Source of the DNA: Woeseiaceae bacterium
GTDB taxonomy: Bacteria > Pseudomonadota > Gammaproteobacteria > Steroidobacterales > Woeseiaceae
NCBI GenBank assembly: GCA_028277185.1
Contig: JANQGQ010000044.1
Location: forward strand, 1-64,000
DNA length: 64,000 nt
Direction of reading: 5' to 3'
In this document: piece by piece, positions 48,774-54,734 of the stretch
How positions within the stretch are numbered: the stretch's first letter is position 1
Layout: the number at the start of each line of letters is the position of its first letter
The notes under the pieces: generated by a model
Database searches by the model: none
The model's input: only the letters and a program-made list of their open reading frames with translations
What the model was told of the DNA's origin: nothing
Position numbers and translations under genes: made by a program

Positions 48774-49889
48774 ATGCATTGGTCCTTGCGGCTCGTTCTT
48801 GCGAGTTCATTCTTCTTCGTTCCGCTTTCCACGCCAACTGCCTATGCCGGCGGCGAGCTTGCGCTCAATCACGTGTGGTCGCGGATGGCCGATATCTACG
48901 GCGAGCCCGGGTCGGTCGAGTCGGCGGAGTTCTCTCCCGACGGCAACTACATCGTCACCGGCAGCAAGTTCGACTTTACGGTGCGCCTGTTTCGCGTCGC
49001 CGACGGTCATCAGATGTGGATGCGGACGGTGCCCGACGAGATCGAACGGGTCGCGTTTACCGGCGACGGCGGGCAGGTCGTGTCGGTGAGCGAGGACTTC
49101 ATGCTGCGGGTATTCGATTCCGCCAGCGGCGAGGTCGTGGCCGACTATGAGCACGAGAACGGGATCGACGGACTCGCCTTGTCCATCGACGGCCGCTACA
49201 TGGTGAGCGGACAGGAGCGCGTCGACGGTGTCGGTCCGGCGAGGGTATTCGATACGCGGACCTGGGAGGTCGTGGCGACCGTCGAGCATCCCGGAACGGT
49301 CAACGAGATCGACTTTTCCTCCGACGGCAAGTACATGGCGACGGTCGGCGATAAATCCGCGCGCGTCTGGAACGTGGCCGACTGGTCGCTGCACTGGGAG
49401 CGCAGGATCGACGAAGCGCCCCTGCTCGGCGACTTGCGACACATCTACATCAACACGAAGTTCAGTCCCGACGGCGGCATGCTGGCCGTCGGCGGCACGC
49501 ATGGTTTCGTTTACCTCTACGACGCGGCGACCGGCGATCTCCTGCGCCGCTTCAACAAGTCCGGTCAGAAGACCGAGACGGTGGAGTGGACGAAGGACGG
49601 CCGCCATCTGCTGGTCGCCGGGCACGGCACGACGATCGACTTCTACCGCACCGGGCAACTGCTCGATTCGGAAATCAGCAACGACGCGCTCCCTTACGCG
49701 CTGCGGGCGACCGTGTCGGATGCGCTCGAGTACATGCACTTCAACCGGATCGGGACCTTGCTGACGACCGCGCATCAGGACGGCACGGTGCAGCTCTGGA
49801 CGTTCATGTCGGACGATCCGACGATCAACGCGAGGCGGCATGAGGAGATCGGCCGCCAGCAGCGGGAACGCTACCGGGAGCAGCAGTGA
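48774..49889 (+). CDS. Exported WD40 beta-propeller, paralogue of the one at 27651-28778
   Basis: The 371-residue protein has a signal peptide ending near AYAGG and WD40-like blades (EFSPDGNYIVTGSKFD, DFSSDGKYMATVGDKSARVW, KFSPDGGMLAVGG). It ends in a charged Arg/Gln/Glu-rich helix like its paralogue. The shared opening W-R-DI-GE-VESAEFS-DG-YIV and last-blade sequence AHQDGTVQLW show a recent family relationship. It is co-translated with GH28 (GTGA overlap), so a scaffolding or recruitment role for secreted enzymes is likely. A GGGAG ribosome site precedes ATG 48774. Confidence 0.85.
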   Translation: MHWSLRLVLASSFFFVPLSTPTAYAGGELALNHVWSRMADIYGEPGSVESAEFSPDGNYIVTGSKFDFTVRLFRVADGHQMWMRTVPDEIERVAFTGDGGQVVSVSEDFMLRVFDSASGEVVADYEHENGIDGLALSIDGRYMVSGQERVDGVGPARVFDTRTWEVVATVEHPGTVNEIDFSSDGKYMATVGDKSARVWNVADWSLHWERRIDEAPLLGDLRHIYINTKFSPDGGMLAVGGTHGFVYLYDAATGDLLRRFNKSGQKTETVEWTKDGRHLLVAGHGTTIDFYRTGQLLDSEISNDALPYALRATVSDALEYMHFNRIGTLLTTAHQDGTVQLWTFMSDDPTINARRHEEIGRQQRERYREQQ

Positions 49890-51361
49890 AGCGTCGTCCG
49901 CCGCTTCGCGGAGTGACCCGACGCGACGTTCTTCAGCACGGGAGCGTCCTCATTGTCGCATCGGCCGGCGGCCTGTTGAGCGCCTGCCGTCCGGCCGGCG
50001 GCCCCGCGCCGGCGACGCCGGATCAGGGCGGCACCGATGCGCGCGACCCGTGGGACGCGGCGGAGACGATCGTCGCCGGCATCCCGGCGCCGCGAATACC
50101 CGATGTTGTCCGCAATGTCCTCGAATTCGATGCGGCGCCCGGCAACGAACGCGACAGCCGCGCGGCGATTCAGGCCGCGATCGACGCGACGGCCGATGCC
50201 GGCGGCGGGCGGGTCGTGATCCCGCGCGGAGACTGGTTCAGCGACGGACCGCTCAGGCTTCGCAGTCGTATCGATCTGCACATCGCGGCCGGCGCGCATC
50301 TCAGGTTCTCGGGACGTGCGGCAAGTTACCTGCCGGTCGTCAAGACGCGCTGGGAAGGCACCGAGGTGTGGACTTACTCGCCCATGGTGTTCGCGGATGG
50401 ACTCGAAGACGTCATGATCTCGGGAAGTGGAACGATCGACGGCCAGGGCGAAGCGAACTTCCTGCCCTGGCGCCAGAAACAGAAGCCCGATCAGAACGCT
50501 CTGCGCCAGATGGGCATCGACGGCGTTCCCGTCGACCAGCGGGTTTTCGGCGAGGGGCACTTTCTGCGACCGCACTTCGTCCAGTTCCGCGAATGCCGGC
50601 GGGTGCTGATCGACGGGCCGACCTTCGTCGACTCCCCGTTCTGGGTGAACCATCTGCTGTACTGCGATCAGGCCGTCGTTCGCAACATCCACGTCGTCAG
50701 CCATCACATCAACAGCGACGGCGTCGACGTGGACAGCTCCACGAACGTAGTGATCGAAAACTGCCGCTTCGACGTCGGCGACGACGGCGTCGCGATCAAA
50801 TCGGGCCGCGACCAGGACGGCTGGCGGGTAAACCGGCCGTCGCAGAACGTCGTGATTCGGGACTGCGAGTACCTCGGCGAGACGGGTGGCGCGATGGCCA
50901 TCGGCAGCGAGATGTCGGGCGGTGTCAGCGACGTCTTCGTCGAGAACTACCGCATGGCGAAGGTGCACCACGCCCTGTACTTCAAGGCCAATCTGGATCG
51001 CGGCGGCAAGATCGAGCGCGTCTTTATCCGCAACATCGATGTCGGCGCCGCCGACAGCCTGTTGATATTCACCAACGATTATCACAGCTACCGCGGCGGC
51101 AACTACCCGGCGCGCTTCGAGAACGTGAGCGTCGCGAACGTCAGTTGCGATACGGCGAGAGTCGGCCTGAGCATCGTCGGCCACGAGCGCGCGCCCGTTC
51201 GCAACGTGACGCTCGACAACGTCCGCATCGGGTCCGCCGAAACGCCGATGCAAATCCGCTACGCCGAGGGTCTCGACTTCGACGACGTGTGGATCGACGG
51301 CGTCCGCGTCAGCGCGCCGCTCAACGGCACGAGCGGCCCCGACGTCAAGCTGAGGCACTAG
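49886..51361 (+). CDS. GH28-family glycosidase (polygalacturonase-like), exported lipoprotein
   Basis: A 491-residue right-handed parallel beta-helix enzyme. A twin-arginine motif (TRRDVLQHG) is followed by a hydrophobic stretch and a lipobox-like LLSAC, so export by Tat with lipidation is possible. The catalytic aspartates of GH28 are present as Asp278 in NSDGVDV and Asp299-Asp300 in GDDGVAIKSG; the usual GHG and RIK positions are altered (AIGSE, FKANLDRGG). GH28 enzymes cleave galacturonic acid or rhamnogalacturonan links; the altered subsites suggest a different uronide. GTG 49886 overlaps the WD40 stop. Hairpin 51376-51462 follows the stop by 14 nt. Confidence 0.88.
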   Translation: MKRRPPLRGVTRRDVLQHGSVLIVASAGGLLSACRPAGGPAPATPDQGGTDARDPWDAAETIVAGIPAPRIPDVVRNVLEFDAAPGNERDSRAAIQAAIDATADAGGGRVVIPRGDWFSDGPLRLRSRIDLHIAAGAHLRFSGRAASYLPVVKTRWEGTEVWTYSPMVFADGLEDVMISGSGTIDGQGEANFLPWRQKQKPDQNALRQMGIDGVPVDQRVFGEGHFLRPHFVQFRECRRVLIDGPTFVDSPFWVNHLLYCDQAVVRNIHVVSHHINSDGVDVDSSTNVVIENCRFDVGDDGVAIKSGRDQDGWRVNRPSQNVVIRDCEYLGETGGAMAIGSEMSGGVSDVFVENYRMAKVHHALYFKANLDRGGKIERVFIRNIDVGAADSLLIFTNDYHSYRGGNYPARFENVSVANVSCDTARVGLSIVGHERAPVRNVTLDNVRIGSAETPMQIRYAEGLDFDDVWIDGVRVSAPLNGTSGPDVKLRH

Positions 51362-51375
51362 GGAAGTATGCGCAA

Positions 51376-51462
51376 GGATAGCGGGCGGGCGAGGGTCCTT
51401 TGCGGGATGGCTCCCTTCGGTCCGCTTAATTCCCGCAAAGGACCCTCGCCCGCCCGCTATCC
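51376..51462 (+). repeat. Long perfect hairpin, copy 1 of a shared-loop element
   Basis: Arms 51376-51407 and 51431-51462 are 32-nt perfect inverted copies around a 23-nt loop (51408-51430). The inner stem GCGGGA/TCCCGC and the loop are shared, 21 of 23 loop positions, with copy 2 read on the minus strand, while the outer stem is unrelated. It lies just after the GH28 stop in sense orientation. It may act as a transcript 3' hairpin or a mobile palindromic element. Confidence 0.85.
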
Positions 51463-51521
51463 CGAAACATTGTGGGAAACGCAAGTTCCGCTGCCACTCA
51501 GGTCAGACACCGTAGCAAGCC

Positions 51522-51606
51522 GGCCTTGTCGTCCGGATGGTGTGTAGCGGGAATAAAGCGGACCGCAGGGAGCCATCCCGCTACACACCATCCGGACGGC
51601 AAGGCC
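51522..51606 (-). repeat. Long hairpin, copy 2 of the shared-loop element, inverted
   Basis: Arms 51522-51552 and 51576-51606 are 31 nt with one G-U-compatible mismatch, and the loop 51553-51575 is again 23 nt. Read on the minus strand the loop begins TGGCTCCC and includes CGGTCCGCTT as in copy 1. It lies 36 nt past the stop of the minus-strand enolase-family gene, so both copies follow convergent genes in sense. Confidence 0.85.
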
Positions 51607-51642
51607 GCAAACGCCACGACAAAGCCACTGCCCGGCAACGAG

Positions 51643-52842
51643 TCAGACGCGGTACCGGCGGATCATGTCCTCGTCGAACTCGAGGCCCAGCCCGGGCCGC
51701 TCTGACACCGTCGTGTGTCCGTCTTCGACCGGAACGGCGGGCAGCGACGGGTTGAAGTGCGAGCGCGCGCTCGGATAGACCTCCATGATCAGCCCGTTGT
51801 CGACCGACGCCATCGTCTGCATCGACATGTGCACGGTGCCGTGCGGCGCGACCGGGATGTGAAACGCGGACGCAAGCGCGGCGATCTTGCGGTACTCGGT
51901 GATGCCGCCGGCCTTGACGACGTCGAGATTGAGAATGTCGGCTGAGCCGGCCTGAACCAGATCCCGGGCACCCCAGCGCGTGAACTCGTTTTCGCCGGCG
52001 ACGATCGGCATGTCCAGCGCTTGCCGAACCTCGGCACAGCCCGCGAAATCGTCGGGCATGACCGGTTCCTCGAACCAGTACGGCCGGTACTCTTCGAGGG
52101 CGCGGCCGAGACGGATCGCTTCGTACGCTTTGAGCCCGTTATTGGCGTCGAGCATGATGCCGATGTCGTCGCCCAGCGCCTTGCGCACCGCCGCGACGCG
52201 CTCGACGTCTTCGCTGAGCGGCGCGCCCGCGACCTTCATCTTGACGACCTTGAAGCCCTCGTCGACGTAGCCTTCCATCTCCCTGACGAGATCGCGGATC
52301 CCTTTGCGTTCCGCGTAGTAGCCGCCGGCCGCGTACACCGGAATCCGCGTGCGGAACGTGCCGAGGATTCGATGCACGGGCAGGCCGAGCGCCTGCCCGA
52401 TGATGTCCCAGATTGCGACGTCGAGTGAGCCCATCGCCTTTATGTAAATGCCCTTGGCGATGGACTTGCGGTTGTAGCGGTACATCCGGTCCCAGAGGCG
52501 CTCCGGTTCGAGCAGGTTCTGACCTTTGAGTCTCGAGAAGGCTTCGCCTTCGATCACCTCACGCGGGGCTTTCGGCCGGCTCCGCCCGACGATACCCTGG
52601 TCTGTGTGCACCTCGAGGATGCTGTCGGTCGGCGGACCGCCCCCGTAGCTTCGGATTGCGTTCCACTTGAGGGGCAACGTCCCCGGAAATTCGAGTTCGA
52701 TGAACTCCAGCCGGGTGATGCGGATGCGCTTCAGCGCGTCTTCCACGGCGCCCGCATGACCTGGCAGTGCGACCGCCGCTGCACCGCCGGCCGCCGCGAA
52801 CTTCAGCGCATCGCGCCGCGTGATCGATGGTTTGGTGTCCAT
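51643..52842 (-). CDS. Tat-exported mandelate racemase/enolase-superfamily enzyme
   Basis: The 399-residue protein has a twin-arginine signal (SITRRDALKFAAAGG) and a complete enolase-superfamily barrel. It shows the KxK motif (VVKMKVAG), metal ligands DANNG, EEPVMPDD and AGENEFTR, and the His in VAPHGTVHM. These are the residues of acid-sugar dehydratases and racemases such as mandelate racemase or L-rhamnonate-type enzymes. An AGGAGAG ribosome site precedes ATG 52842. It is divergent from the lactate permease-like gene, with a palindromic element between. The substrate is probably an aldonate or uronate; a periplasmic location is unusual. Confidence 0.88.
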   Translation of the reverse strand: MDTKPSITRRDALKFAAAGGAAAVALPGHAGAVEDALKRIRITRLEFIELEFPGTLPLKWNAIRSYGGGPPTDSILEVHTDQGIVGRSRPKAPREVIEGEAFSRLKGQNLLEPERLWDRMYRYNRKSIAKGIYIKAMGSLDVAIWDIIGQALGLPVHRILGTFRTRIPVYAAGGYYAERKGIRDLVREMEGYVDEGFKVVKMKVAGAPLSEDVERVAAVRKALGDDIGIMLDANNGLKAYEAIRLGRALEEYRPYWFEEPVMPDDFAGCAEVRQALDMPIVAGENEFTRWGARDLVQAGSADILNLDVVKAGGITEYRKIAALASAFHIPVAPHGTVHMSMQTMASVDNGLIMEVYPSARSHFNPSLPAVPVEDGHTTVSERPGLGLEFDEDMIRRYRV

Positions 52843-52942
52843 GAACTCTCCTGTGCCGCGCAGTTGCGTCGCTATTACATCCGTTACAGAATAGCCCAGC
52901 ACGAACTCTACTGAAAAAAAAATTACAAACGTTCCGATGATT

Positions 52943-52996
52943 AAAAGGTGTCAGACCTATTTCTTCCTTTAGCAAAAAATAAGTCTGACACCTTTT
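52943..52996. repeat. Long REP-like palindrome between divergent genes
   Basis: AAAAGGTGTCAGAC (52943-52956) and GTCTGACACCTTTT (52983-52996) are perfect inverted copies, extended inward by CTATTT/AAATAA with one mismatch. The inner loop is T/A-rich. It resembles dispersed palindromes seen near REP-associated transposases in gammaproteobacteria. It occupies the divergent spacer and overlaps the upstream part of the permease frame. Confidence 0.75.
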
Positions 52997-53018
52997 GATC
53001 CTGACAGCGGGGGAAACC

Positions 53019-54734
53019 GTGTCCTTGGGTCTGCTCGCGGCACTAGCGGCCGCGCCAATCGTTCTTGCCGGCGTACTCATCGTCGGTTTTCGTCTGCCGG
53101 CCCGAACGGCGATGCCGGTCACCTTCGTGCTGACGGCGGCGATCGCCGTGACCGTCTGGGGCATGCCCGCGACCGCGGTCGCCGCCGCCACGGTGCAGGG
53201 GCTGTTCGTCACCTTCGACATCCTGATGATCATCTTCGGCGCGATCCTGCTGCTGAACACGCTCCGCTACTCGGGCGCGCTCAGCGCCATCCGCCATGGT
53301 TTCTCGGAGATCAGTCCGGATCGGCGCATCCAGGTGATCATCATCGGCTGGATGTTCGGCTGCTTCATCGAAGGCGCCTCGGGTTTCGGCACACCGGCGG
53401 CGATTGTGGCGCCACTACTCGTCGCGCTCGGCTTTCCCGCGATCGCGGCGGTGATGCTCGGGATGATGGTGCAGAGCACGCCGGTGACTTTCGGCGCCGT
53501 CGGCACGCCGATACTCGTCGGCGTGCAGAGCGGTCTCGACAGTCCCGACGTGCTCGCGGCGCTCGCCGCGGGCGGGATCGACAAGTCCGAATACCTGCAG
53601 ATCGTCACCGTCAACGTGGTCACGCTGCACGCGATTGCGGGAACGGTCATGCCGCTCCTGATGGTCGCGATGATGACGCGCTTCTTCGGCGCGAACCGTT
53701 CCTGGCGCGAAGGCCTGGCCGTTCTGCCCTTTGCCATCTTCGGCGGTTTCGCGTTCACGGTGCCGTATTACCTGACCGGTGTCCTGCTCGGGCCGGAGTT
53801 CCCGTCCATCCTCGGCGCGTTGATCGGCATGGCGATCGTCACGACCGCGGCCCGAGCGGGCTTTCTCGTGCCGAAGACGACCTGGGACTTCGCGCCGGCG
53901 TCGAACTGGCCCGACGACTGGTCGGGGCGGCTGCGCATCGATCTCGACGAGCACGTCGCCGCCGGCGGCAATGGCGGCGCAATGCCGTTGTGGAAGGCCT
54001 GGCTGCCGTATCTGCTGGTAGCGGCACTGCTCGTGCTGACGCGGGTGCGGGAGCTACCCTTCGGCGATTGGCTCAGGTCGGTTCGCTTCGCCTGGAACGG
54101 CATCTTCGATACCGGCATATCCGCCGCGACGACGCCGCTGTACCTGCCGGCGTCGATCCTGATTGCGGTGGCCTGCCTCACCGTACTGCTGCACCGCATG
54201 CCCACCGAACGGTTCGGCCGGGCGTTTACGGAGTCGTCGCGCATGCTGCTCGGTGCCGGTTTCGTGCTGATCTTCACGGTGCCGATGGTGCGGATCTATA
54301 TCAACTCAGGCAGCGGCACCGAGCTCGACAGCATGCCGATCATCATGGCGCAGTGGGTATCGACGAACGTCGGCCAGGTGTGGCCATTGTGCGCGCCGAC
54401 GATCGGCGCGCTCGGGGCGTTCATTGCCGGCAGCAATACGGTCAGCAACCTGATGTTCGTGCTGTTCCAGTACGGCATCGCGCAGAACCTCGGTATGTCC
54501 ACGGCGCTCGTCGTGGCACTGCAGGCCGTCGGCGCCGCGGCAGGAAACATGATTGCCATTCACAACGTCGTTGCCGCCTCGGCGACCGTGGGCCTGTTGG
54601 GGCAGGAAGGCCGAACGCTGCGGCGGACGCTGCTGCCGACGGCCTACTATCTGACCGCGGTCGGTATCATGGGGCTGCTTGCCGTGCACGTGCTCGGCGT
54701 GGCCGATCCCTTGCTCGCTGGCCGGAGCCCGTGA
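53019..54734 (+). CDS. LctP/GlcA-family lactate or glycolate permease
   Basis: A 571-residue inner-membrane transporter with about 12-14 segments, matching the LldP/GlcA family. Typical blocks are [33 protein letters not shown] and [19 protein letters not shown] with [21 protein letters not shown]. It imports L-lactate, D-lactate or glycolate with protons. GTG 53019 follows GGGGGAA; an earlier TTG lies inside the palindrome. It is co-transcribed with hydroxypyruvate isomerase (1-nt overlap) and tartronate semialdehyde reductase, so glycolate is a fitting substrate. Confidence 0.92.

Follow-up and report, generated by a model that had tools for sequence, protein, structure and literature searches.

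The two long hairpins lying between convergent genes in the window (the whole stretch of 64,000 nucleotides analysed here) form an inverted pair that belongs to a large, lineage-specific family of paired hairpins interspersed in the genome. The family is real, abundant and lineage-bound, and its copies are spread among uncultured bacteria of sediments. On balance, and with little more than even confidence, we regard it as a non-autonomous intergenic paired-hairpin repeat whose loop is read in trans and whose stems are kept by arm copying. The evidence consists of a nearly invariant loop on stems that differ among copies, of paired stem changes that accumulate at a rate close to that of the flanks, and of the positions that the hairpins occupy in this genome and its relatives.

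The hairpin pair and its family

Hairpins A and B (Table 1) each have exactly 23 nt between the arms, and their loops, TGGCTCCCTTCGGTCCGCTTAAT and TGGCTCCCTGCGGTCCGCTTTAT, lie on opposite strands and differ at positions 10 and 21. A sequence-only reading of this DNA had reported loops matching at 21 of 23 positions, a common inner stem GCGGGA/TCCCGC, and outer stems that are unrelated to each other yet self-complementary, and the comparison of arms and loops confirms all three (32/32 and 31/32 bp paired). Its coordinates hold for the first copy with its 32-bp arms; the second copy ends at 51607 instead of 51606 and has 31 of 32 positions paired. The odd pair of hairpin B is G.T on the + strand, that is, C.A on the strand whose loop reads TGGCTCCC. 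Folding energy of the hairpin region is -166.9 kcal/mol versus -96.1 (sd 5.1) in 200 shuffles (z = -13.8). The GH28 and enolase-superfamily genes converge on the pair (stops 51361 + and 51643 -). Each hairpin had been said to sit in sense just past one of these genes, which is literally true and uninformative, because any hairpin orientation in a convergent gap is sense to one of the two neighbours. Another 30-bp quasi-palindrome (GGTGTCAGACCTATTT...AAATAAGTCTGACACC) is located at 52939-53000 of the window; it is a RAYT-type REP, of the kind that flanks the genome's sole Y1_Tnp match.

Table 1. Features at the hairpin locus (window coordinates)
Feature	Coordinates	Strand	Details
Hairpin A	51376..51462	+	arms 51376-51407 / 51431-51462, 32/32 bp; loop 51408-51430 = TGGCTCCCTTCGGTCCGCTTAAT
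Hairpin B	51521..51607	-	arms 51521-51552 / 51576-51607, 31/32 bp; loop 51553-51575, - strand = TGGCTCCCTGCGGTCCGCTTTAT
Spacer between hairpins A and B	51463..51520		repeats along with both hairpins in other A-B units of the genome
Repeated A-B unit	51368..51628		approximate extent, from the matching part (7 to 267) of the query 51362-51640
Core of hairpin A (loop + 6-bp inner stem)	51402..51436	+	two loop CT dinucleotides are IS110 insertion sites in other copies
Left neighbour, glycosyl hydrolase family 28 (GH28) protein	49886..51361	+	stops 14 bp ahead of hairpin A
Right neighbour, enolase-superfamily (MR_MLE) protein	51643..52902	-	stops 35 bp from hairpin B

An exact search of the 4.4-Mb genome finds the 20-nt core 31 times and a reversed-pattern control not once, so chance is excluded for the window hairpins. 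Within three mismatches of a 25-mer there are 36 genome sites, five of which are IS junctions. At least six stem classes with a common loop are found in this genome alone, often as inverted pairs, and the A-B unit of the window recurs at three other sites (C7, C11 and C20), with cores 148 bp apart and 84-87% identity to the window unit over both hairpins. Searching the genome and its relatives for the core with variable flanks yielded numerous additional copies whose flanks are self-complementary. Among 99 kin genomes, the source genome included, 24 carry the exact core, as do 22 of 61 within the genus; it occurs in none of 368 other genomes sampled over the class, a sample with one other member of the genus and three of the order. 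At least 109 stretches in GTDB contigs carry it, and among the 80 matches listed in named genome contigs the sources are Woeseiaceae, Woeseia, Gammaproteobacteria or Proteobacteria without closer placement, and in one case a MAG with the label Rhodospirillales. A phage or plasmid origin was considered and rejected: the A-B unit had no match in phage or plasmid collections, and the exact core was absent from the viral contigs searched. Among the titles listed by searches of an open-access library, none describes the family.

A fixed loop on drifting stems

Copies were defined by a loop within four mismatches, which gave 209 distinct copies, 158 of them with at least 20 paired positions when the loop is taken as 23 nt. 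The 51 copies below 20 pairs that were dropped comprise 24 bulged, 13 weak and 7 unpaired copies, 5 with IS110 in the loop and 2 at an end; one of the unpaired copies, at window position 54068, resembles a chance match. In the 158 hairpins 17 of 23 loop positions are invariant, a conservation inflated by the fact that most copies outside the genome itself were gathered by exact loop match, and the fairer test comes from searching this genome itself, once with mismatches allowed and once with the whole unit as query. Around this one loop the stems (22-60 bp, mostly 26-36 bp) fall into 55 clusters at 70% identity, related copies being non-independent in both the loop and the stem counts. A loop of 23 nt is also implied in 118 of the 123 copies with a best stem of at least 10 pairs, drawn from the 171 exact-core copies tabulated first. 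Stems differ between genomes and even between the two partners of a pair while the loop is nearly invariant, and a fixed loop amid free stems would point to a sequence-specific factor.

A second loop haplotype, first seen at the rpsJ-rplC site, has positions 7, 13 and 15 jointly changed from C-G-C to G-C-G; of 296 genomes in the order, 45 carry it. When 196 hairpins were collected with the anchor TGGC or CGCTT, up to six mismatches and a stem of at least 18 pairs, 169 read C-G-C, 25 read G-C-G and two had another base at position 7 only. The three positions thus switch in lockstep with nearly no intermediates, and positions 7 and 13 remain complementary in both haplotypes, hinting at a base pair within the loop. 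In the phylum sample, 397 other genomes have no exact match to either haplotype or to a mixture of the two.

Some individual loci are worth recording. A 39-bp hairpin at L183 3774 has the loop TGGCTCCCTTCGGTCCGCTTGAG and a stem dissimilar to the other classes. The copy at L029 3257 is chimeric: a single core has a class C arm on its left and a class F arm on its right, the product expected if two cores had once been joined by inversion or deletion. Short tandem iterations of GGTTGATGCGCAAGGAT-like units, up to four, stand just outside the hairpin on the left at L009, L016, L024, L026 and L028. At L021 3583-4710 a called gene lies between pieces of class F hairpins and is flanked by class C and D hairpins; its G+C content is 0.53 versus 0.65 around it, and it is a possible cargo.

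How the stems stay paired

In 19 independent close pairs, with a flank divergence of no more than 0.2, the sequence outside the right arm differs by 0.126 substitutions per nt (68 transitions, 48 transversions) and the stem by 0.103 two-sided changes per bp (21 transitions, 22 transversions). Mismatch states, one-sided or other, come to 0.05 per bp versus about 0.22 expected for independent arms, a four-fold depletion. The ratio of two-sided to flank change is 1.26, 0.82, 0.69 and 0.68 at divergence cut-offs of 0.12, 0.2, 0.3 and 0.4 (6, 19, 31 and 37 pairs), and at the strictest limit, with 6 pairs only, one-sided states are 0.045 versus 0.113 expected. Compensation via G.U intermediates should favour transitions; the ratio of transitions to transversions in two-sided changes does not differ significantly from that of the flank (p = 0.29). 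Because the pairs change near the neutral rate and spectrum, without a transition excess, arm copying is the preferred reading and probably best explains why two-sided change runs near the flank rate while one-sided change is depleted. A mechanism that copies an arm onto its partner, with the core between them conserved, was among the options of the sequence-only reading, and two-sided changes at 0.8 of the flank rate lend it support. Part of the paired-change pattern could equally be mimicked by selection, if that were very strong.

Arm copying is not immediate, since one-sided changes are present among the closest copies: three pairs with flank divergence below 0.05 show six one-sided changes and one two-sided change (five of the six from one pair), and among nearest neighbours with no more than two differing stem positions, 36 changes are one-sided and 30 two-sided. 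If strands exchange templates, the loop should now and then come to lie inverted between its flanks. No such inversion was found in class A, where 8 of 8 copies keep their orientation, or in class B of this genome (5 of 5). As described in PMC8794818, template switching in replication keeps the arms of inverted repeats complementary by copying, with two-sided changes arising in one step. The hairpins would resemble the repeats homogenised in this way if their arms are, as seems probable, kept complementary by copying; they differ in that they make up a mobile repeat family whose loop is constrained, and in showing no loop inversion in classes A and B.

The pairs that remain imperfect are strongly asymmetric between strands. 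When each combination of cluster, position and type is scored once, the loop strand shows A.C 99 versus G.T 15, C.C 32 versus G.G 3 and C.T 37 versus A.G 13. Restricted to isolated mismatches, the counts become A.C 57 versus G.T 5, C.C 13 versus G.G 0 and C.T to A.G 9:7, with two-sided binomial probabilities of 3e-12, 2e-4 and 0.80, and the 25 hairpins with the second loop type show a like bias (28:7, 12:1 and 19:4). The bias of 57:5 and 13:0 means that the complement strand retains the more stable mismatches. Either folding of the complement strand is selected, as RNA or as single-stranded DNA, or it is the loop strand that folds during correction and the mismatches escape. Nearest-neighbour energies give RNA a slight edge and no decision (log-likelihood -31.6 versus -33.0 for DNA). 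A lean towards DNA folding, which came from events that included adjacent mismatches (C.T 37:13), was given up, as it is gone for isolated events (9:7).

These mismatches are one argument for an alternative that we hold to be possible, if doubtful, namely an RNA element in which the loop of the complement-strand hairpin (AUAAAGCGGACCG[C/A]AGGGAGCCA) binds a protein or RNA and the stem is under ordinary pairing selection with G.U tolerated. Residual mismatches would then be G.U on the complement strand, as the 57:5 count has them, and the unbiased isolated G.A/C.U mismatches (9:7) are what RNA energies predict; the slightly better fit of the RNA parameters, the one-sided changes among the closest copies and the hairpins that 14 of the 30 examined loci have between rpsJ and rplC (see below) agree with it as well. 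It has more difficulty with two-sided changes that, at each of four cut-offs, run at 0.7-1.3 times the flank rate without a transition excess, and with the lack of orientation preference in co-directional gaps. Furthermore, no Rfam family reaches threshold in positions 50000-53000 of the window, where the hairpins match only miRNA families below threshold (36.2 bits versus 73, and 20.8 versus 91), and no sigma-70-like promoter was found in 51300-51700.

REP-like deployment and the search for a mobilising gene

The hairpin family is REP/BIME-like in its deployment, and departs from REP elements in three of the features tested, the tag, the stem size and the link to RAYT. REP, BIME and REPIN elements are likewise interspersed palindromes, mostly in inverted pairs and intergenic near gene ends, and they share the mosaic arrays, the role as targets of the IS110 family, and heterodimers with different stems (PMC3733652, PMC3116915, PMC2817692). 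REP stems are given as 5-13 bp and loops as 2-20 nt (Table 1 of PMC3733652); the present family differs from that description by a stem of typically 26-36 bp, a nearly invariant 23-nt loop and a freely drifting stem. Within 12 nt of the stem base of 154 hairpins, the REP tags GTAG (26, with 18.4 expected) and CGTC (28, with 25.8 expected) show no clear enrichment.

That these are REP/BIME elements mobilised by RAYT, in the manner of REPINs, is accordingly very unlikely in our judgement, although the inverted pairs, the convergent and co-directional sites, the IS110 docking and the mosaic arrays all fit what PMC3733652 and PMC1525189 describe. The transposases were sought as PF01797 within the genus genomes, which gave 58 matches in 39 of 61 genomes. 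At the 30 loci read, one per genome, there is no core within about 1.5 kb, the best having five mismatches, and RAYT as mobiliser was rejected as unsupported at these loci. The sole match of the source genome (L325, G000 C6:143107-143451) has another repeat, GTGTCAGA/TCTGACAC, on its flanks, and 7 of the 22 genus genomes with the exact core lack a Y1_Tnp match. An all-against-all comparison of 473 neighbouring proteins gave no transposase-like cluster among the 25 largest (those with at least three loci). By their sequences these clusters look like housekeeping or regulatory genes.

Other hairpin systems are more distant. Integron attC sites have conserved R and L boxes at the base of the stem; unlike them, the hairpin family is conserved at the apex. 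The repetitive hairpin-forming elements of mitochondria (PMC2800124) are also invading, sequence-divergent hairpins spread across related lineages; they differ in residing in organelle genomes.

Placement, orientation and orthologous sites

Gene calls were made by a purpose-written hexamer script in place of a standard caller. The first tally, of 171 copies, found 125 intergenic with called genes on both sides, 44 at edges and 2 inside called genes; the 125 occupy 61 convergent, 53 co-directional and 11 divergent gaps. A second tally, with 197 of 201 copies intergenic, gave 105 convergent, 77 co-directional and 15 divergent, related copies being counted each time in both tallies so that the events are non-independent. 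As background, 11 of the 50 gene gaps in the 64-kb window are convergent and 10 divergent. The family is enriched in convergent gaps and rare in divergent ones, and has no fixed direction relative to the genes. A partner lies within 450 bp of 127 of the 201 copies; of 143 partner relations 103 are +-, 24 are -+ and 16 are direct, that is, 127 are inverted, a pair entering twice if both its members are focal. This agrees with REP-type elements, which form inverted dimers in intergenic gaps, convergent or co-directional.

Of the functions that the sequence-only reading had considered, a sense RNA function at gene 3' ends, as transcription terminator or mRNA stabiliser, is largely refuted, and we think it slightly less probable still than mobilisation by RAYT. 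What speaks for it is that about half of the copies are in convergent gaps (61/125 and 105/197, versus 11/50 of the window gaps). However, there is no significant sense bias: loops in co-directional gaps are 29 sense to 24 antisense in the first tally, and in the second the unpaired copies are 21 to 13 (p = 0.23) and the paired copies 19 to 24. That reading had staked its proposal on further self-complementary copies, which abound, and on orientation to genes, which in co-directional gaps is close to random. Only 1 of 158 hairpins has five consecutive T in the 12 nt beyond the stem when the loop strand is read, and 0 of 158 when the complement is read; the distribution among genomes is patchy, and both hairpin orientations are found inside the S10 operon. 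A terminator scan lists none at the window hairpins, its 8-nt loop limit being one that would miss loops of 23 nt.

One orthologous site bears on mobility. The neighbours of the window's own pair match different contigs in the two best-matching relatives, and for this reason the gap between an rluC-like gene (pseudouridine synthase; PseudoU_synth_2, S4) and a Maf gene was used for the empty-site comparison. In the source genome (G000) this gap is 477 bp, with a class E hairpin of the family and other palindromes. In 16 other genomes it is -16 to 118 bp in 15 and 248 bp in one, as read by hand from gene coordinates at the 17 of 30 loci with a converging Maf-size gene (13 were left out). The unit is present in G000 and absent from the orthologous gap elsewhere, which indicates insertion. 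Together with the many dispersed copies, these empty gaps support the earlier suggestion of a mobile palindromic element.

Other copies are shared between species. Between rpsJ and rplC of the S10 operon the family loop is present at 14 of 30 loci examined (L381-L410, of 44 S10 matches; loop within four mismatches of type 1), either 30-98 bp past rpsJ in sense or 192-234 bp in antisense. Each of the 14 loci holds at least one hairpin, hairpin pairs and both orientations occur there, and the stems differ between species by changes on both arms. In the same gap, either loop haplotype is seen on a nearly identical stem (G048 versus G037). The S10 and methionyl-tRNA synthetase neighbours are confirmed by Pfam; the other neighbours, judged by their sequences, are presumably rplC, tuf and so forth. 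Since the copies recur between species, some of them must be old and lie within an essential operon, a position that would be hard to square with strong termination. Recurrence at orthologous sites, here and elsewhere, could mean a host function.

IS110 elements in the loop

Two insertion sequences interrupt the loop. The first, an element of about 1.19 kb whose transposase has the DEDD_Tnp_IS110 and Transposase_20 domains, is inserted after CGGTCCGCT; the second, of which only the ends are seen, is inserted after TGGCTCCCT. The second shares with the first AACATAGAATCT at its right junction and TTGTATGTT at its left one, and the reading frames of the two end in similar codons (VALSRKLARLAFALLRDQSELRPHRPA in the second, VALSRKLVRVCYALLRQQAAFNPDLRNRACAAT in the first), so it is taken as a sibling of the first IS110. 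Five left junctions are visible for the first element and four for the second, most of them near contig ends of the draft assembly. The IS110 ends are visible at L015 1-1450, at the ends of L370, L371, L372 and L373 and at the start of L016, and two CT dinucleotides are used. At L015 1-1450 (reverse) a complete IS110 copy stands between half a class C hairpin and half a class A hairpin, a mixture that reflects either recombination between IS copies or an assembly join.

The left non-coding end of the first element holds CGGTCCGCTT and GAATAAAG and that of the second ATGGCTCCC, matching the two target halves. Both features of an IS110 target, a CT core and a guide-like match in the non-coding end, are therefore present, with guide pairing read as a sequence match. 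IS621 carries its guides in the element and has REP elements as natural targets (PMC11208160). The present elements are like IS621 (PMC11208160) and like ISPpu9/10 and others (PMC1525189) by IS110-family insertion at a CT core in a repeated palindrome and by a guide-like non-coding end; unlike them, two elements with alike ends here use different CT sites of one 23-nt loop. Judged from the junctions, IS110 at two CT sites of one loop looks like a natural example of guide re-targeting.

The IS110 elements are best regarded as parasites for which the hairpin loop is a safe and abundant site. The converse, that IS110 needs or spreads the loop and the hairpins are by-products of IS110 recombination, is the least probable of the explanations weighed: the insertions at two loop CT sites and the matching non-coding ends would suit it, but many intact hairpins have no IS in the loop, insertion splits the hairpin, and loop haplotype 2 no longer matches CGGTCCGCTT.

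A model for the family and its meaning

The favoured account, of a repeat read in trans with stems kept by arm copying, can be stated as follows. The element would be a non-autonomous intergenic repeat deployed like REP/BIME, usually as two inverted hairpins. Its loop may be kept because a trans-acting factor reads the folded, single-stranded hairpin and spreads or holds the element. The stem would be needed only as a stem, and any mutation in one arm would in time be copied to the other arm or erased from it, probably by template switching in replication or by hairpin-templated synthesis. With an equal chance of copying and erasing, pairs would drift near the neutral rate, and if the folding of one strand matters more, the residual mismatches would be strand-biased. 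IS110 elements would be secondary parasites with non-coding ends matching the loop. A more far-reaching form of the idea, which we consider unlikely, is that the loop alone is inherited as sequence: the element would spread via its loop, fold-back synthesis would rewrite the arms, and the stems would drift neutrally and yet stay perfect.

Two-sided changes in a stem are usually taken as proof of a selected RNA structure. With many related copies, and with their flanks as the yardstick, compensatory selection and arm copying become distinguishable by test in bacteria. The strongest new point is in this sense a quantitative one: in this family the stems evolve as pairs near the flank rate, while the loop stands still.
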